Origin: Chitinophaga pinensis
GTDB lineage: Bacteria > Bacteroidota > Bacteroidia > NS11-12g > UBA955
NCBI GenBank assembly: GCA_945877575.1
Contig: CAMDUE010000015.1
Coordinates: 1 to 64,000 of the forward strand
Length of the DNA stretch: 64,000 nt
Direction: 5' to 3'
This document shows, piece by piece, positions 57,315-64,000 of this stretch; position 1 is the first letter of the stretch; each line of letters starts with the position of its first letter. The notes beneath the pieces are model-generated. The model saw only the letters and a list, made by a program, of their open reading frames with translations. It was not told the DNA's origin and did no database searches. A program made the translations under genes and the position numbers.

Positions 57315-57322
57315 CAAATATA
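57315..57322 (-). promoter_or_regulatory. -7 box of the beta-CASP gene
   Basis: TATATTTG on the minus strand fits TAnnTTTG and ends 3 nt before the ATG at 57311, the shortest spacing in the window. Confidence 0.55.
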
Positions 57323-57371
57323 ACGAAAGGCCGCGGATCCAATTTAGGTGATGCAGGAAATTATAACACCA

Positions 57372-58355
57372 TTAACTTTTAAGTTTATTCAATCTAATCT
57401 GATAAGATTGAAAATAATTCCTTTGAATTCGTTCTTTTAGAAATGAAGCATCAATTAGTTTCTTTACTACGTCAGATTTAGAGACCATCAAAGACAATAT
57501 TATGTTTGTTTGTTTCTCTGGAATTTCCGCGTGTTTTGCCAGTAGCCGAAATTGATTTGGAATATTTCCTTGTCCCATTCTTGCAGGGATTAATCCTTCA
57601 TCTAAAGCAAAGTCTTTATCTTCAATATGTATTCGACTGTTCAAAAGATCATAGGCTGGACTCAATTTAAAATCACCCAGCGGGGTTTCAATGATGGAGA
57701 AATTCTTCAAATGAGCATCTCCATTCGAAAACAAGTAATTAAATATTAATAATTTGAATAATTTCAGCGATTCAACTTTATAGCTAGGTAAATTTTCACG
57801 CATCAGCTCAAATAGATCCCAATAACTCCCGAGGTATTTATAATCTGCTCCATGTGTTTGGGGACTTTTACCTGCTAGCGAGGCAAAATCTTCTTGCGCC
57901 ACTTTGAGGCCACCTGTTAATAGGTCAAAACGTTTGGTGATGTACGCGGGGTCACCATTTCCAAAAAATATCAAGGCATTTTCTGCCGTTTCAATGCCAA
58001 ATACTTGCCGTGCAATTTGCATAGTCAGGTGTTCATTTGCAGGCATCTGATCAGCGTTTTTTGAAACACTTGAAATGGGTTTTAAAATATGTGTACCTTG
58101 CTCGCCTTCCTTTGTCAACCGAATTTTATTCTTCAATTGAATCATAGAAAATTTTTCCTGCACGCCCGAAATCGAAATACGGGAAGCATTCTCTTCAAAG
58201 GAATCATCAACATTGTCATTGGAGTTTAAAGAAGTATAGGGAAGAACATGATTTACCTTGCTCCCGTTGAATACATGTTTAATGCAGGTTCTACTGTAAG
58301 TTTCAAATCCTGGCGCCAGCGTTCCTGGACATTTATTGATTTCAACCTTCATCAT
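57372..58355 (-). CDS. hipT: HipT-type serine/threonine kinase toxin
   Basis: The 327-residue protein has the HipA kinase core without the HipA N-subdomain 1, which is encoded separately by the upstream gene. Key residues: the Ser-Ile-Ser motif S61-I62-S63 in the Gly-rich loop, the ATP lysine K92 in THILKPIS, catalytic D213 in FSNGDAHLKNFS, and the metal-binding D236 in LSPAYDLLNS. This matches the three-gene HipBST systems described from E. coli, in which HipT phosphorylates a tRNA synthetase (TrpS). The target here is unknown. It overlaps hipS by 4 bp and looks intact. Confidence 0.88.
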   Translation of the reverse strand: MMKVEINKCPGTLAPGFETYSRTCIKHVFNGSKVNHVLPYTSLNSNDNVDDSFEENASRISISGVQEKFSMIQLKNKIRLTKEGEQGTHILKPISSVSKNADQMPANEHLTMQIARQVFGIETAENALIFFGNGDPAYITKRFDLLTGGLKVAQEDFASLAGKSPQTHGADYKYLGSYWDLFELMRENLPSYKVESLKLFKLLIFNYLFSNGDAHLKNFSIIETPLGDFKLSPAYDLLNSRIHIEDKDFALDEGLIPARMGQGNIPNQFRLLAKHAEIPEKQTNIILSLMVSKSDVVKKLIDASFLKERIQRNYFQSYQIRLNKLKS

Positions 58356-58675
58356 TTCACTTTAATGATTTTAACCGCACCAATGGTATCTCCACCGGCT
58401 ACTTCTAATAAAATTCCAAAATAATCATCAGAGTCTATTCGCTTTTTATTGCAGATTAAACTCTTATTCACCCCTTCAGGAATCAAATTGAAGAAAAAAG
58501 GAAAAAGGGTAGTTGATTGGAATTCCACACTGGTTTTTGGCAAGGTCAAACTGATAGGTGGCTTATTGCTATCGGTTAACCACTGCTCCTCATATCTAAA
58601 AATAAAACTTCCATCATCTAGTTGATTTAGCGTTCCAGCTTTTTGGTTTTTATAAAGTACAATTCCTGTTCTCAT
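58352..58675 (-). CDS. hipS: HipS-type small antitoxin (HipA N-subdomain 1)
   Basis: The 107-residue protein corresponds to the detached N-terminal subdomain of HipA (GIVLYKNQKAGTLNQLDDGSFIFRYEEQWL..., ending GGDTIGAVKIIK). In described HipBST loci this small protein, not HipB, neutralises the kinase. It overlaps both neighbours by 4 bp (ATGA), giving tight coupling with hipB and hipT. Confidence 0.87.
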   Translation of the reverse strand: MRTGIVLYKNQKAGTLNQLDDGSFIFRYEEQWLTDSNKPPISLTLPKTSVEFQSTTLFPFFFNLIPEGVNKSLICNKKRIDSDDYFGILLEVAGGDTIGAVKIIKVK

Positions 58676-58890
58676 ATTTTATTGAGTTTTTTTACTTGTA
58701 AAACAAGTTCCAGTCCAAGTACATCAACAATTTCTTGTAAAGTTTTATAGGTTGGATTAGCCTTTCCGGCTTCCAACTGTTTAATTGTGCGAAGTCCCAC
58801 CCCCGATAGATCAGCCAAATGTTCTTGGGTAATCTTCAGCATCTCTCTTCTTTCTTTTATTTGTTGAACTAAATCAGAAAAGTGCGTCAT
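58672..58890 (-). CDS. hipB: HipB-type XRE-family regulator
   Basis: The 72-residue protein is almost entirely one helix-turn-helix domain (ITQEHLADLSGVGLRTIKQLEAGKANPTYKTLQEIVDVLG). It is the DNA-binding, autoregulatory partner of the HipBST operon. It is the first gene; an inverted repeat with 8-base arms overlaps its likely promoter. Confidence 0.88.
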   Translation of the reverse strand: MTHFSDLVQQIKERREMLKITQEHLADLSGVGLRTIKQLEAGKANPTYKTLQEIVDVLGLELVLQVKKLNKI

Positions 58891-58906
58891 AATGCTCTAT
58901 TTGGTG

Positions 58907-58933
58907 TAAAAATAATCAAAAATTCATTATTTT
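58907..58933 (-). promoter_or_regulatory. candidate hipB promoter and operator
   Basis: An inverted repeat with 8-base arms (AAAATAAT at 58909-58916 and ATTATTTT at 58926-58933) has a 9-base spacer. Its left arm overlaps TATTTTTA (58914-58907 on the minus strand), one mismatch from the -7 consensus. A regulator bound here would block initiation 17 nt upstream of hipB. Confidence 0.45.
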
Positions 58934-58949
58934 CAATAGAATGGGCATT

Positions 58950-58961
58950 TTAGTGCACTAA
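58950..58961. promoter_or_regulatory. 12-bp perfect palindrome upstream of hipB
   Basis: TTAGTGCACTAA is self-complementary and lies 60 bp upstream of the hipB start, beyond the candidate operator. It could be a second operator or chance. Confidence 0.3.
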
Positions 58962-58981
58962 TGTGAGACTTAAAAATTTAT

Positions 58982-59185
58982 TTAAAGTTGGTAATATAAG
59001 CCATTCTCAAAATCCAATCGTTCGTGTAGAATTCTTGTAATTTCAATTGTTTTATCGTAAATTATACAATAAAATCAGCTTGTACGGCGAGCCTTTAACA
59101 ATTTTAAATGTTCTTCAGATTTAAAATCTTCAGCGATACCGCTTTTAATTCCGACTTCAATAGCAAGACGTAAAGCCGCCCGCCG
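58982..59185 (-). pseudogene. fossil parDE-type toxin-antitoxin pair (both genes truncated)
   Basis: Reading the minus strand from 59185 gives an antitoxin C-terminus: AALRLAIEVGIKSGIAEDF, then KSEEHLKLLKARRTS and a TGA stop at 59077-59075. Directly after that stop and in the same frame comes FYCIIYDKTIEITRILHERL and DFENGLYYQL with a TAA at 58984-58982, the end of a ParE/RelE-like toxin. The antitoxin N-terminus and most of the toxin are missing, so a deletion joined the two genes. No start codon is suitably placed. It is a decayed module next to the live HipBST locus. Confidence 0.65.
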
Positions 59186-59235
59186 CTAGCTGAAATGGAC
59201 AGTGGTGAATCCAAACAAGCATTTAACAAATTTAT

Positions 59236-59243
59236 TATCTTTG
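59236..59243 (+). promoter_or_regulatory. -7 box of the MNT gene
   Basis: TATCTTTG fits TAnnTTTG and ends 4 nt before the ATG at 59248. Confidence 0.6.
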
Positions 59244-59247
59244 TTTC

Positions 59248-59541
59248 ATGCAACTAGACAAATCAAGCATAGAGAAAATTAAAGATTACTTCAAGACAAG
59301 ACCTGTCTTGACAGCATATCTTTTTGGTTCATATGCTCGAGGAGAAGCAGATAACCGAAGTGACATTGATATCCTAGTTGATCTTGATTACAGCCAAAAA
59401 ATAGGATTAGAATTTGTCCAAATGCAGATTGACCTTGAAAAAATACTTAAGACGAAGGTTGATTTGGTTTCTTCTGGCGGATTGTCGAAATATGTCCGAC
59501 CAATAATTGAAAGTGAGAAACAATTAATTTATGCGCGGTAA
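59248..59541 (+). CDS. mntA: MntA-type minimal nucleotidyltransferase antitoxin
   Basis: The 97-residue protein is a complete MNT domain: LFGSYARGEADNRSDIDILVD carries the GSx10DxD active site and KTKVDLVSSGGLSKYVRPII the third acidic strand. In MntA-HepT systems this enzyme AMPylates the HEPN RNase toxin. Here the toxin gene that overlaps its 3' end is truncated (next entry), so the antitoxin is an orphan. The mRNA is probably leaderless. Confidence 0.88.
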   Translation: MQLDKSSIEKIKDYFKTRPVLTAYLFGSYARGEADNRSDIDILVDLDYSQKIGLEFVQMQIDLEKILKTKVDLVSSGGLSKYVRPIIESEKQLIYAR

Positions 59542-59707
59542 ATTAGGTGACAAAGTAAGACTTAATCACATCTTGGAAGCTATTATTGAAATTGAGAGCT
59601 ATTTGAATGATGCCGATTTCGATACATTTATGGAAAATTCGATGATAAGATTCGCTTGCGTTAAACAAATGGAAATTGTTGGAGAAGCTAGTTATTTCCA
59701 TAATTGA
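59531..59707 (+). pseudogene. truncated HepT-type HEPN toxin
   Basis: An ATG at 59531, 11 bp inside the end of mntA, opens a 58-codon frame: MRGKLGDKVRLNHILEAIIE, then the residues ending FACVKQMEIVGEASYFHN. This is the N-terminal half of a HepT HEPN domain, whose usual length is about 110-140. The RNase motif RxxxxxH near the C-terminus is missing: the frame ends at TGA 59705-59707 after GEA, where homologues continue with AN-x-I. The region after it is attC-like DNA, so the 3' half was probably lost by recombination. Confidence 0.7.
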
Positions 59708-59730
59708 GACTTTAAATTAAGGCCATTTCA

Positions 59731-59819
59731 GCTAATACACGGTTTGCCGTAAGCGGGGGCAATTGTGCTAGTCTAAAAAATCTATCTTTAGATTCCGCAC
59801 TTGGCGCAAGCCGTTACAA
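59731..59819. repeat. attC-like imperfect inverted repeat 1
   Basis: The left arm near ACACGGTTTGCCGTAAGCGG (59737-59756) is imperfectly complementary to GCACTTGGCGCAAGCCGTTA (59797-59816), with a small central hairpin (AATCTA and TAGATT). The layout resembles an integron attC site, but the outer core heptamers are poor (GTTACAA on the right). It follows the truncated HEPN gene directly. Confidence 0.45.
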
Positions 59820-59884
59820 TTTAGCGGTCAGGATAAAACGAGTGCCCATAATAGAATGAATATTAAATTTCCAAACATGGCACA

Positions 59885-59917
59885 AAACAAAAAACACCCA
59901 CATTTCTGTGAGTGTTT
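59885..59917 (-). terminator. hairpin beside the tRNA fragment, copy 1
   Basis: On the minus strand, stem arms at 59917-59912 and 59897-59892 are extended by four more pairs after one mismatch (loop 59903-59906). A T-rich run follows. It is placed like a terminator after the tRNA 3' end. Confidence 0.55.
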
Positions 59918-59920
59918 CTA

Positions 59921-59976
59921 GAGTAGCGAAGGGGGGAATTGAACCCCCGACCTCAGGGTTATGAATATTGCGGTAT
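59921..59976 (-). repeat. tRNA-Met(CAU) 3'-end fragment, attachment module copy 1
   Basis: On the minus strand the sequence reads from the anticodon loop TTCATAA through the T arm (GGGGG TTCAATT CCCCC) to the acceptor end TTCGCTAC. The 5' half of the tRNA is absent and the anticodon stem is not restored, so this is not a functional tRNA. It is identical over 56 bp to 61415-61470. This is the usual footprint of tyrosine-recombinase integration into a tRNA 3' end. Short TGGCACA motifs sit at fixed distances on both sides. Confidence 0.75.
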
Positions 59977-60081
59977 GTTTTGTAAGTAATTGATAGTCAA
60001 TATTATTGTTGTTCTATAATTCAGGATTTTATGGGATTTTTGATGAAAACATGGCACAGAAAACTGGCACAGATTGAAACA

Positions 60082-60233
60082 CCTATCTTCTGAATTGAAG
60101 GAATAACGAAGTAATTGGGTGTTTTATGAAATCTTGAATACGCAATTTGCAATTTCCGCAAATGTCAGAAAATCAAGACTCCAATTTTATTTTGCAATTC
60201 CTATGTGATTGTGATAGTTTCGTATATAATCGA
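60082..60233. other. intergenic stretch without recognisable gene
   Basis: This 152-bp AT-rich stretch lies between the attachment module and the start of the cassette. I see no ORF, inverted repeat or promoter consensus that stands out. It could include an attI-like or secondary integration site for the cassette that begins with GTTAGGT at 60234. Confidence 0.3.
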
Positions 60234-60259
60234 GTTAGGTGCAACCATAGACAACGACA

Positions 60260-60997
60260 ATGAGACGACTAATATACATAATTTATTCTCTGACCCTTTT
60301 AGGTTGTGGTGACAATTCTAAACAGGCTGATAATAATGTGGCTGACACAATTATCTCGAACGAAGAAGTTGTTAATGTAACAGACCCAAGTGACTATAAA
60401 ATTTTACCTCTTGACGAAAGCAAAAGTGACCCGACTTTAGTTGCATTCATAAATAATTTGAAAAAAGTTGTTTCAAACAAAGACACTTCTGGACTTTTTC
60501 AATCATTGGACACTGCAATAATTGTAAGTCACGGTGGGGGCATTTATGGAGTAAATGAGTTTTCAAAAAATTGGCAACTCGACAAACCCGACAAATCAGA
60601 ATTATGGACAATTCTAAACCGAATATTAAGTATGGGCGGAACTTGGGAGAATGACGAAGGCAAATATTTTTGTATTCCTTACGCCCAATCTAACAAAGCA
60701 TTTAGTAAATATAAATATAACTTTGACTGGTATTTTACAGCCGTCTGCATTTCACCTAATGTGACGGTTTATCAGGAACCCAAAACAACTTCCTCAAAAC
60801 TTGCTACCTTAACTTATGACATAGTGGAAATGGACCCTGAGTTTATGAAAGCAGACTTTACAAAAATTCATACCATTGACAAAAAAGTTCAAGGCTATGT
60901 AAAGACAACAGACCTAATTTATTCATCAGACCAATATTTAGTAATTAAAAAGATTGACGACAAATGGAAAATAACAGCGTTTGCACCATACGACTGA
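60260..60997 (+). CDS. cassette-borne lipoprotein with SH3-like C-terminus
   Basis: The 245-residue protein has a lipobox LLGC (Cys at about 16) and an acidic linker. A central region of unknown family (about 50-160, with FQSLDTAIIVSHGGG) precedes an SH3b-like domain (about 165-235: VTVYQEPKTTSSKLATL, GYVKTTDLIY). It would sit in a membrane facing the periplasm or outside. It is the only gene between the two attachment modules and is followed 13 bp later by the attC-like repeat. The function is unknown. Confidence 0.7.
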   Translation: MRRLIYIIYSLTLLGCGDNSKQADNNVADTIISNEEVVNVTDPSDYKILPLDESKSDPTLVAFINNLKKVVSNKDTSGLFQSLDTAIIVSHGGGIYGVNEFSKNWQLDKPDKSELWTILNRILSMGGTWENDEGKYFCIPYAQSNKAFSKYKYNFDWYFTAVCISPNVTVYQEPKTTSSKLATLTYDIVEMDPEFMKADFTKIHTIDKKVQGYVKTTDLIYSSDQYLVIKKIDDKWKITAFAPYD

Positions 60998-61010
60998 CAG
61001 AATTGTCAGC

Positions 61011-61142
61011 ACCTAACACGGGTTTTGCGTCAGGCGGGTTGACGTGCAAAATTGGAGCTTTGTGCTTCTATTCAATTTTAATGCAAGTTGACAGTTTAGT
61101 TCTCCGAATCCCGCCCGAACGCAAAGCCGCAAACCGTTATGG
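61011..61142. repeat. attC-like recombination site 2
   Basis: This 132-bp element begins with ACCTAAC and ends with GTTATGG. Its arms (GGTTTTGCGTCAGGCGGG at 61021-61038 and CCCGCCCGAACGCAAAGCC at 61110-61128) are imperfect inverted repeats, as in attC sites that fold as single strands. The length is within the known attC range. Confidence 0.6.
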
Positions 61143-61382
61143 GGACTTTTTATAAAAAAGCGGACGACAAAACATATTCTTCACGGCTAACTGACACCTC
61201 TTCGTCGGAACCACTAACAACCAATAATACCCCAATGTTACCCCTTATTATTCATCATTGATTTGTTTTTACCGATGGGGTCAATTTCAGTCTAACGAAA
61301 TGGGGTTGGGTTGTCTGATTATTCCAATAACAATAACCAAGAAATGAACCCAAACATGCACACCAAAACTGGCACAAAATAA
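61143..61382. other. intergenic stretch without recognisable gene
   Basis: These 240 bp between the attC-like site and the second hairpin hold no convincing ORF or promoter. One TGGCACA motif (61370) lies at the right end. Confidence 0.3.
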
Positions 61383-61408
61383 AAAAGCCACTAAAAATAG
61401 TGGCTTTT
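61383..61408 (-). terminator. hairpin beside the tRNA fragment, copy 2
   Basis: A perfect 11-bp stem (AAAAGCCACTA with TAGTGGCTTTT) has a 4-nt loop. It has A/T tracts on both sides, so it could terminate in both directions. Its sequence differs from the hairpin of copy 1 although the position is the same. Confidence 0.75.
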
Positions 61409-61414
61409 ACTTTG

Positions 61415-61470
61415 GAGTAGCGAAGGGGGGAATTGAACCCCCGACCTCAGGGTTATGAATATTGCGGTAT
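61415..61470 (-). repeat. tRNA-Met(CAU) 3'-end fragment, attachment module copy 2
   Basis: It is identical over 56 bp to copy 1 at 59921-59976, and the next 28 bp differ at only a few positions. As in copy 1, only the anticodon loop to acceptor end of the tRNA is present on the minus strand. TGGCACA motifs lie at +131 and +144 from the left edge, exactly as in copy 1, and near -45. Confidence 0.75.
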
Positions 61471-61640
61471 ATTTTTTAAGTGATTGTTAATCAATATTGT
61501 TAAGTTTTTATGTGTCGGGATTTTTAGGGGTTTTTGATGAAAACATGGCACAGAAACATGGCACAAACATAAAGAAGGTTTAATGTATTGATTTCCTGTA
61601 ATGAGGATGACTTACTTCTTTAATCAAGCGTCAATGTCGC

Positions 61641-62732
61641 TCATTCGAATAAATGAACTTCTTTGTGGTTTTCGTGAAATTCCATAAACAGAAACTCAAT
61701 GTTCATATTATGATATTGAGCGAGTTGGTATAATATTTTTTTAACTTCAAATGTTTCTGCCTTGGTTTTGTGTGTAGGTAGGAGAATTTTTTTTAAATTG
61801 ATTCGTGGAAATTGAGTTTGGAAAAAAGTTTTAATTGGCTCGTCAAGTTTAAGTGTTCTAATGATTTTCTCTCTTTTATCACTTTCAAAATACAATCTTT
61901 CAATTTGGACGACTTCATTTCTACTGTTTACATATACTCCATTAAAAAATGCATGATTAGCTGAATATTTATTATCATCAGTTGAATCAATAGGTGATTT
62001 AATTAATCGAATCTCATTTTCGATAGAATATTTTGACTCCTTGAAAAACGATAGTAAAGGATAAATCGCATCTTGCAGTCCTGTGATTTGATAATTGTTT
62101 TCTTCAATCCATAACTCCGTATTTTTAATCAAATTTTCTAAAAAATGAGGTGGTTTCTCATTGATTTGAGAATATTGGATTTTGGATAAATGGAACTTGT
62201 ACCATTCGTTCCTATTAGTTAGGTCAATTTCCATAACAAGTGCAATGGGGAAGTCTTTACCGAATCCATAAAAATTGTTTTTAAGATTTTCGTAACACGT
62301 TTGTAAAGATTCTATATTTTCTAAATCAAATGGGGATAATGAAAGATTCAGAAAATCTGCTTTGATTACTTCTTCGTCTAAAAAAATGTTAGTTTTGGTT
62401 TGGAAAGGCTTTAAGTTTAAAAGTATTTCATTTTTATCAGTAGATGTATTGAGACCTGACAGGTTTATGCACCCCTCAGAAAGGATACTTTTGACTGCCT
62501 CTAAATTGGTGAAATGAACAAATGTATTTCCTTCGTTGTAATAGAATTGACTTCCCTCCAATACCTTTCCAAATGGACTCATTGAAAGTTGAAATGAGTC
62601 ATAACTTAAACTCCTCGCGCTGGCAATTTCGAAGTTAGGAATATGAGGATTTAATACCTCTTTGATATATTTTTCGTATTTCTCAGTGAACTCAAATCGC
62701 TTGTACAATTCAAAATCATTATTTGCTTCCAT
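61641..62732 (-). CDS. DUF2971-like protein
   Basis: The 363-residue protein has FVHFTNLEAVKSILSEGCINL near residue 72, a His-Tyr/Phe-Thr opening like that of DUF2971 proteins, and a late EIRLIKSP segment (about 245) that also recurs in that family. DUF2971 genes are frequent in mobile and defence-rich regions, and an ADP-ribosyltransferase-like fold has been suggested for similar layouts. I cannot assign an activity. It is divergent from the XRE-hsdM genes and is the accessory gene nearest to them. Confidence 0.5.
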   Translation of the reverse strand: MEANNDFELYKRFEFTEKYEKYIKEVLNPHIPNFEIASARSLSYDSFQLSMSPFGKVLEGSQFYYNEGNTFVHFTNLEAVKSILSEGCINLSGLNTSTDKNEILLNLKPFQTKTNIFLDEEVIKADFLNLSLSPFDLENIESLQTCYENLKNNFYGFGKDFPIALVMEIDLTNRNEWYKFHLSKIQYSQINEKPPHFLENLIKNTELWIEENNYQITGLQDAIYPLLSFFKESKYSIENEIRLIKSPIDSTDDNKYSANHAFFNGVYVNSRNEVVQIERLYFESDKREKIIRTLKLDEPIKTFFQTQFPRINLKKILLPTHKTKAETFEVKKILYQLAQYHNMNIEFLFMEFHENHKEVHLFE

Positions 62733-62887
62733 GGGTTTCTCTTGTTTTGGTAATCATGTAAATCGCAAATTACTTATGAATACAGAGTAATTACCCACAA
62801 CTTTATATTGTATTTCCACATATTTTTCATTGGTTTTTTCATTTTTTTAGTCGTCATTTGTTTCAATCTTGTAAAAATTTTTTCAAT

Positions 62888-63076
62888 ATGAATAGGATAA
62901 AAGAGGTAATGGACGAAAAAGGTATCAAACAAACGTGGCTCAGTGAAAAACTTGGAAAGAGTTATTCTCAAGTGAATGGCTATGTTCAAAACCGCAATCA
63001 ACCAAGATTAGAAGTTTTGTTTGAGATTGCGAAATTATTGGGAGTGGATGCAAGAGATTTGATAAAAGGAAAATAA
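62888..63076 (+). CDS. XRE-family regulator upstream of a type I R-M locus
   Basis: From the ATG at 62888 the 62-residue protein is a single helix-turn-helix domain (GIKQTWLSEKLGKSYSQVNGYVQNRNQPRLEVLFEIAKLLGV). It ends 3 bp before hsdM, an arrangement common in Bacteroidota type I loci, and probably acts as the controller that delays or tunes restriction gene expression. Confidence 0.85.
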   Translation: MNRIKEVMDEKGIKQTWLSEKLGKSYSQVNGYVQNRNQPRLEVLFEIAKLLGVDARDLIKGK

Positions 63077-63079
63077 GAA

Positions 63080-64000
63080 ATGGTAAAAGATTTAGAAAAA
63101 ACACTTTGGGCTACGGCGGATAAACTCCGCAACAACATGGATGCGGCGGAATACAAACACATCGTTTTAGGATTGATATTCTTGAAGTACATTTCCGATA
63201 GTTTCAAAGAACTTCATACCAAATTAAGTCAAGATGAATATTCCGATGCAGAAGATAAAGATGAATACTTGGCGGAGAATGTGTTTTATGTCCCTCCAAC
63301 AGCAAGATGGGAATATCTTCAAAACGAAAGAGCCAAACTACCAACCATTGGTAAAGATTTGGACGATGCGATGGATGCCATTGAAAAGGATAACCCCAAT
63401 CTAAAAGGTGTTCTTCCTAAAGATTATGCAAGACCTGCATTAGATAAAAAACGATTGGGTGAACTTATTGACCTTATTGGTAATATTGGATTCAATGAGC
63501 CAGGTCAAAACAGTAAGGATTTATTGGGTAGAGTGTATGAATATTTTTTAGGGATGTTTGCCGATGCCGAAGGAAAAAGAGGTGGACAATTTTATACTCC
63601 TGAAAGTATTGTAAAACTCTTGGTGGAAATGTTAGAACCTTACAACGGTAGAATTTACGATGGATGTTGCGGTTCGGGAGGGATGTTTGTTCAAAGTGAG
63701 AAATTCTTGGAAGTACATGGTGGTAAAATAGGGGACATCGCTGTTTATGGACAAGAAAGTAATCCAACAACCTATAAACTCGCCAAGATGAACCTTGCTA
63801 TTAGAGGAATTGATGCGAAGATAGAATTGGGAGATACCTTCCACTCTGACCGACACAAAGACCTTCAGGTGGATTATGCGATTATGAATCCACCCTTTAA
63901 TATTTCAGATTACGGGGCTGAGTCATTACAGGATTCACACCTTTGGAAATATGGTGTTCCTCCGTCAGGAAATGCGAACTACGCTTGGCTTCAGTTGGTG
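63080..64000 (+). CDS. hsdM: type I restriction-modification methyltransferase HsdM (3' end outside window)
   Basis: The visible 307 codons from the ATG at 63080 run off the right edge in frame. Residues 1-150 form the HsdM N-terminal helical domain ([38 protein letters not shown]). Then comes [27 protein letters not shown]-binding motif I in [11 protein letters not shown], and the N6-adenine catalytic motif NPPFN. It methylates adenine in a bipartite target chosen by HsdS. The hsdS and hsdR genes should follow outside the window. Confidence 0.95.

Follow-up and report, generated by a model that had tools for sequence, protein, structure and literature searches.

CIMEs of Streptococcus, 1.2-13 kb in size, accrete in tandem at the 3′ ends of tRNA genes or other genes (PMC7563491). 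CALINs lack intI, and mobile integrons are carried by transposons or plasmids (PMC9024848; PMC8618304). Integrons are almost unreported in Bacteroidetes, with one complete integron described, in Salinibacter (PMC9024848). The I2 helix has been reported to be required for cassette capture and to exist in no other protein (PMC7790495). A case from Riemerella anatipestifer involves aph(3′)-IVb, which is taken up independently of homology, with a 27-bp 5′ flank and a 140-bp attC-like 3′ flank, by a recombinase that is unknown (PMC13148043). Statements on novelty made below extend only to the open-access literature; the genomes compared are drafts and the assemblies are mixed.

The window, i.e., the whole stretch of 64,000 nucleotides that was analyzed, is part of contig C15 of a draft genome (2.5 Mb, 30 contigs) and includes a segment, denoted element A (59967-61460), that very probably is a non-autonomous, tRNA-targeted mobile mini-integron without intI, served by two enzymes in trans; this interpretation rests on sequence comparison alone. 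Element A resembles CIMEs in being flanked by att sites, in lacking integrase and transfer genes, in its tandem arrangement at one target gene and in falling within the size range of 1.2-13 kb, but differs from them in that it recurs, its ends staying conserved while its integron cargo is exchangeable, and that no derivation from an ICE or IME has been demonstrated; judging from this recurrence, A looks like a stable form. As in integrons, A contains attI, a gene cassette and a structured attC and, as in CALINs, it has no intI; however, it retains attI, and the carrier is its own tRNA-targeted element rather than a transposon or plasmid. Because intI is missing from both the element and the genome, A is CALIN-like and not a complete integron. 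The Riemerella unit likewise comes from a Bacteroidota host, and its flanks are similar in length to the 25-bp 5′ and 139-bp 3′ cassette flanks of A; the likeness concerns lengths only, without a comparison of sequences.

The module coordinates given in the initial annotation all proved correct: the 56-bp identical run is exact (59921-59976 and 61415-61470), and TGGCACA occurs at 59878, 60052, 60065, 61370, 61546 and 61559, i.e., at offsets of -43 or -45, +131 and +144. The repeat of the whole module spans 151 bp, with 87% identity between the two copies, which are spaced by 1,494 bp. The TGGCACA motif is found 16 times in the window, compared to 8.6 expected (16 or more in none of 100 shuffles), and the double arm TGGCACA-N6-TGGCACA, confined window-wide to the two modules, did not appear in any of 200 Markov-1 simulations. 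The right-end arms are degenerate in both A and its neighbor, element B. The identical run had been taken for the 3′ part of tRNA-Met(CAU), which holds for 44 bp (59923-59966, spanning the anticodon loop through the 3′ end) but not for the other 12 bp, of which 2 bp are flank and 10 bp belong to the left end of the element itself, where A has ATTGCGGTAT and the intact tRNA-Met gene carries CCTGCGCTCT. ARAGORN detected no tRNA in the window. The proposal that the modules are att sites of the tyrosine integrase type is supported by their geometry, which is directly observed, with the binding of the arms being inferred; the att direct repeats are placed at the 3′ end of the target gene, a CIME criterion. 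It would have been refuted by modules widespread away from tRNA genes; the module matches, however, sit at tRNA-Met copies, and the remaining matches of the module search either concern the attI portion of complete integrons or are short and partial. The features of the locus are collected in Table 1.

Table 1. Features of the tRNA-Met array and of related loci (positions without a prefix are those of the window)
Feature	Position	Strand	Basis
Left part of the island, older and decayed, with HipB/HipA-like pair, nucleotidyltransferase and broken partner ORF, terminating at the left tRNA module	57318..59966	.	ORFs and Pfam
HipB/HipA-like pair	58890-57372	minus	Pfam HipA_C, HTH_3
Probable decayed integron cassette with nucleotidyltransferase ORF 59248-59541	59187..59820	+	
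TGGCACA arm, right end of the older element	59878..59884	+	
tRNA-terminator hairpin, matching the hairpin at the intact tRNA (90 bp, 97% identical)	59892..59918	.	
Left module, 3′ 44 nt of tRNA-Met(CAU); putative crossover in or close to the anticodon loop	59923..59966	-	
Putative mini-element A (1,494 bp), in which the cassette follows the left end, arms and attI and precedes the right end, its arms and the tRNA 3′ half	59967..61460	+	
Double arm of element A, TGGCACA-N6-TGGCACA	60052..60071	+	
attI region, insertion point between AG and TTA	60072..60234	+	homology to complete integrons of four relatives
Pc-like cassette promoter, Bacteroidota type, TTTG-N20-TAGTTTCG	60191..60222	+	matching sequence, conserved in alignment A5; promoter function inferred
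Integron gene cassette, 902 bp, starting with TTAGGTGC after G60234, attC at its end	60235..61136	+	
Cassette ORF, 245 aa, lipoprotein-like, without a family match	60260..60997	+	
attC, 135 nt (R″ GCACCTAAC ... R′ GTTATGGG)	61009..61143	+	
Conserved right end, function unknown, 86-88% identical in G048, G059 and G063	61137..61333	+	
Right-end arms of element A: degenerate ATGCACAC and TGGCACA at 61370	61357..61376	+	
Terminator hairpin GCCACTAAAAATAGTGGC carried by the element	61387..61405	.	
Middle module, where elements A and B join: last 44 nt of tRNA-Met(CAU)	61417..61460	-	
Start of element B: arms 61546-61565, 363-aa ORF (minus), HTH, type I restriction hsdM	61461..64000	.	
Other attC clusters near tRNA Lys, Met/Glu and Ser	L099:7625-7759, L100:7138-9754, L101:9297-10570		
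I2-less recombinases by attI/attC arrays, Bacteroidota relatives	L086:2453-3505, L087, L088, L089, L090-L098		

Contig C15 runs 2.5 kb past the end of the window and overlaps contig C8, which begins with the 149 bp that terminate C15; this single overlap is the only support for the join. The intact minus-strand tRNA-Met(CAU) gene predicted to lie at the end of the island was found there (C8:4120-4194), which through the overlap projects to position ~70467-70541 of the window. The locus thus reads: chromosome, a decayed older remnant, a module, element A, a module, element B and the restored tRNA-Met. With the intact gene in place and each segment bearing its own arms, the comparison supports tandem accretion at the tRNA gene, as had been suggested, the movement itself being an inference. 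In the older part of the island, where Pfam detects HipA_C, HTH_3 and NTP_transf_2, the probable decayed cassette starts with TAGCTGAAATGG, which pairs with CCATTTCAGCTA at 59723 and is followed by an attC-like hairpin; this pair is the sole 12-bp inverted repeat in 59101-59900 (0.02 expected), and the hairpin scores under the threshold of the attC model R1 (see below). Element B is ~9 kb long, its hsdS, hsdR and a 294-aa ORF continuing on L009 and L010 up to the intact tRNA-Met, and its hsdM-hsdS-hsdR type I restriction operon becomes complete when read across the C15-C8 join.

The integrase expected beside tRNA-Met is absent from this genome; only one relative, G043, encodes an integrase at such a site. 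The PF00589 genes present are two Xer-like genes and two 411-412-aa integrases adjoining tRNA-Ser, with no others, so that no integrase for the tRNA-Met site is encoded here. After each of the two tRNA-Ser(TGA) genes comes a tyrosine integrase of the Arm-DNA-bind_5 type (411 and 412 aa; L013:8506-10100 and L014:51-1646). At the tRNA-Asn locus of the same genome (L011:3581-8802), the downstream hairpin is repeated (4816, 6952 and beside the tRNA) with single genes in between, which suggests a second tandem array; the DinB gene at this locus is similar to a G043 cassette gene.

The 1.49-kb unit between the modules had been described as a mini-element without an integrase, and indeed no recombinase or transfer gene lies inside it, but the attI site and the integron cassette had been missed. 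The stretch 60072-60234 is homologous to the region between the recombinase start and the first cassette in G024, G046, G047 and G069 (68-75% identity), an observed relationship that ties it to attI sites linked to intI-like genes. The left conserved part of A terminates at ATCGAG, directly before TTA, and is followed by an ORF that ends in a 135-nt palindrome; the start of the cassette, GTTAGGTGC, is the exact reverse complement of the start of this palindrome (9/9), and the insertion at the canonical position between G and TT fulfills the attI criterion. The attC site scores 108.7 bits with model R1, being itself one of the five training sequences. The right-end segment 61137-61333 is non-coding and is kept at 86-88% identity across genera. 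The cassette protein, P0007, has no homolog in NCBIfam, Pfam, PDB or the family genomes, and hence the circulation of this particular cassette is unobserved. An Rfam search over 8 kb around the site gave no match, and replication or packaging-hijack genes, the criterion for tycheposons and phage satellites, are absent from A, which has a single ORF of an unknown family. The exact module pattern has no match in viral contigs, so that the vehicle between cells remains unknown. Element A, then, can be read as an attI platform with one cassette in which the recombinase gene appears to be replaced by arms and a tRNA core.

The scaffold recurs in relatives, which were searched across the family with the module minus most of its tRNA part. 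Modules 83-99% identical were found in G043, G048, G059 and G063, two of these in another genus, with the 99% identical copy in G048, a different genus; G062 yielded a partial module only, the contig ending there. In the same four genomes, a tRNA-Met(CAU) gene with adjoining arms lies at the far end of the element, which in G048 is spread over two contigs. A-type scaffolds with other cassettes, one of them truncated by a contig end, were observed at tRNA-Met in four relatives, and alignment of the elements reveals a common left end (to ~60237-60261) and a common right end (from ~61120-61154) with unrelated cargo between them. The G063 element (1,457 bp) has an A-like design with a different ORF, the G059 element (11.7 kb) is accompanied by a third, decayed module farther out, and the G043 element (10 kb) combines an integrase, attI and three cassettes. 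The 431-aa tyrosine integrase of G043 terminates 5 bp ahead of the double arm, an adjacency that is the only link between enzyme and arms; integrases of this type were found in 1/108 genomes of the order. No conjugation genes were identified in this integrase-bearing relative of A, and its right end is different, the conserved segment 61137-61333 being missing from it but present in G063 and G059.

An empty site, the search for which had been proposed as a check, was observed in the G063 assembly. Contig C22 has flanks matching those of the occupied contig C17 (92% identity along 3.2 kb of one flank, the match resuming past the tRNA), such that the two differ by one 1,457-bp insert at the tRNA; they possibly come from two strains. 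The tRNA-Met sites of G063 are at L138:3000-3460 and L034:1-1900, one empty and one occupied. Armless single-copy tRNA-Met sites were found in G060, G064, G067, G068 and G069, and the site is unoccupied in several congeners. Elsewhere, in G061, an arsenic-resistance-like operon comes after a tRNA-Met site that has a TGGCACA double arm, with no integrase seen among the ORFs (L133:9900-13127), and an apparent single cassette of G059 (L032:8637-17170) spans 8.4 kb and several genes, which is very large for an integron cassette.

The cassette boundaries can be assessed through the complementarity between the cassette start and the R″ of its own attC, a start that is the reverse complement of the beginning of its own palindrome being the signature of an integron gene cassette. 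This complementarity is 9/9 in A, G063, G043, G059, G069 and G046 (starts GTTATGGGC in G063, GTTAGTGGC in G043 and GTTATGCCC in G059). Among consecutive cassettes of several genomes, 13/17 starts match their own attC at 8 or more of 9 positions, compared to 8.5% of mismatched pairs (0/10,000 permutations); the four non-matching starts are mostly long-distance, and an intermediate attC may have been overlooked. Five attC sites covary strongly, with 92.6% of cells paired as opposed to 74.7% in shuffles and 30-40% in slid controls, and the attC criterion of a foldable site with conserved structure rather than sequence is fulfilled. The covariance model R1, trained on five sites including that of the window and giving only rough E-values, detects six to seven attC sites in this genome and attC in 49/70 family genomes. 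All four attC-bearing places of this genome lie 3′ of a tRNA gene: tRNA-Met (element A, where the tRNA counted is the 3′ half carried at the element's own right end), tRNA-Ser beside an integrase, tRNA-Lys and a second tRNA-Met/Glu pair, the distances at the latter three being 1.4-2.7 kb. Neither the tRNA-Lys locus nor the second tRNA-Met locus yielded direct repeats.

The gene adjoining attI in relatives encodes a 350-390-aa tyrosine recombinase that is XerA/IntI-like, scoring 166-169 bits with TIGR02249 (IntI; cut-off 265) and 188-198 with NF040815 (XerA; cut-off 220). In the alignment of ten attI loci, TTCGTA.ATAATC.AGTTA is invariant, and the cassette starts at the identical base in all ten. 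These recombinases share with IntI (PDB 2a3v, VchIntIA) the catalytic fold, the RHR/Y residues and a C-terminal SPLD-like motif but differ in the absence of the I2-helix insert, the additional domain of IntI, and in carrying a further domain at the N-terminus, marked by a KWS...W motif. Alignment to IntI4 skips 62 residues (181-244) where the relatives' proteins have 19 aa; likewise, a gap at 178-241 of the TIGR02249 profile is covered by about 20 aa. The family is represented in 19/70 genomes, 17 of which also carry attC, with a mean of 7.5 attC sites where the recombinase family is present and 2.2 where it is absent (Mann-Whitney p 6e-4; Fisher p 0.04), and most copies are located either less than 8 kb from an attC or at the end of a contig. 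No canonical IntI above the TIGR02249 cut-off was found in the 70 family genomes, and the IntI-like family is absent from the window's own genome. A 190-aa tyrosine recombinase encoded after the last G043 cassette was considered as a general cassette enzyme and rejected, being present in only 2/70 genomes, once as a partial gene.

Outside this family of genomes, a plasmid of a cultured Chryseobacterium (L139:7986-16686) carries an IntI-like gene followed by at least 3-4 attC-like sites in one orientation, with one cassette satisfying the start/R″ rule at 8/9. In plasmids of Pontibacter and Rufibacter that have more distant recombinases, model R1 found no attC. On another plasmid (L140:9954-11896), a related, shorter tyrosine recombinase directly adjoins an IS91 family transposase, and recombinases like this IS91 neighbor seem to be common in Acinetobacter plasmids. 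Given such related recombinases beside IS91-like transposases, the argument made here is one of attC linkage and not of family membership alone.

In the proposed mechanism, a tyrosine integrase provided in trans by a helper element of the G043 type would bind at the TGGCACA arms and catalyze recombination, close to the anticodon loop, between the 44-nt tRNA-Met 3′ half of the element and the gene of the host. Insertion would restore the tRNA on one side and leave a 3′ fragment on the other, and repeated insertion at the restored gene would yield the tandem of the older remnant, A, B and the intact tRNA. An integron-type recombinase from another source, also in trans, would place a cassette between G and TT at attI, so that the cargo could be exchanged without a change of the scaffold. 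The absence of both enzymes from this genome is observed, and thus both reactions must be supplied in trans. The tRNA-integration step is deduced from the module anatomy, the recurrence, the empty site and the adjacent G043 integrase, and the cassette-exchange step from the invariant insertion base and the attI homology. The identities of the enzymes, the binding of the arms, the activity of the promoter and current mobility are inferences, in the absence of a circular form, reads or an assay.

The most serious competitor of this scheme holds that A is a decayed CIME remnant of an autonomous G043-like integron island that lost its integrase and is now fixed. The integrase, attI and three cassettes of G043 do coexist in a single element, the right-end arms of A are partly degenerate, and CIMEs of 1.2-13 kb are common products of decay (PMC7563491). 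However, integrase-less forms recur, in G063 (1,457 bp) and in G059, with a right end (61137-61333) that is missing in G043, and the coexistence of a nearly intact copy with an empty site suggests that movement was recent; such decay is possible but appears unlikely. Far less plausible is the origin of the array by segmental duplication or homologous recombination of one tRNA-flanking region: the segments between the modules are unrelated and each has its own arms, the modules are only 87% identical and the middle hairpin differs, and relatives display single-element states and empty sites, even though the left and rightmost modules have terminator hairpins of an identical type (90 bp, 97%). 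This origin is disfavored as very improbable.

The attC-like palindrome could also be a transcription terminator or a REP-like repeat with coincidental cassette boundaries. The hairpins are strong and match no Rfam family; nevertheless, the complementarity between start and R″, a direct observation, is far greater within own pairs than in mismatched pairs, evenly spaced tandem arrays adjoin one specific recombinase family, and the attI junction is at the identical base in ten loci, which leaves this explanation scarcely tenable. The reading of A as a helper-dependent mini-integron is the preferred one.

Whether Bacteroidota possess a large integron system of their own, in which XerA/IntI-like recombinases capture structured attC sites without I2 and attI platforms spread between genera on tiny integrase-less tRNA elements, appears evenly balanced on the sequence evidence at hand. 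If it exists, such a system would explain the homology-independent cassette uptake in Riemerella. Software that demands the IntI-specific domain (PMC9668308) would call these arrays CALIN and miss the system, and the I2-less recombinases, if active, would require a revision of the view that I2 is essential for cassette capture. On the preferred reading, element A combines within 1.5 kb two recombination systems, a tRNA-targeted carrier and an exchangeable cassette, each dependent on a helper, and its design offers a simple route for the movement, here inferred, of single genes between freshwater Bacteroidota.
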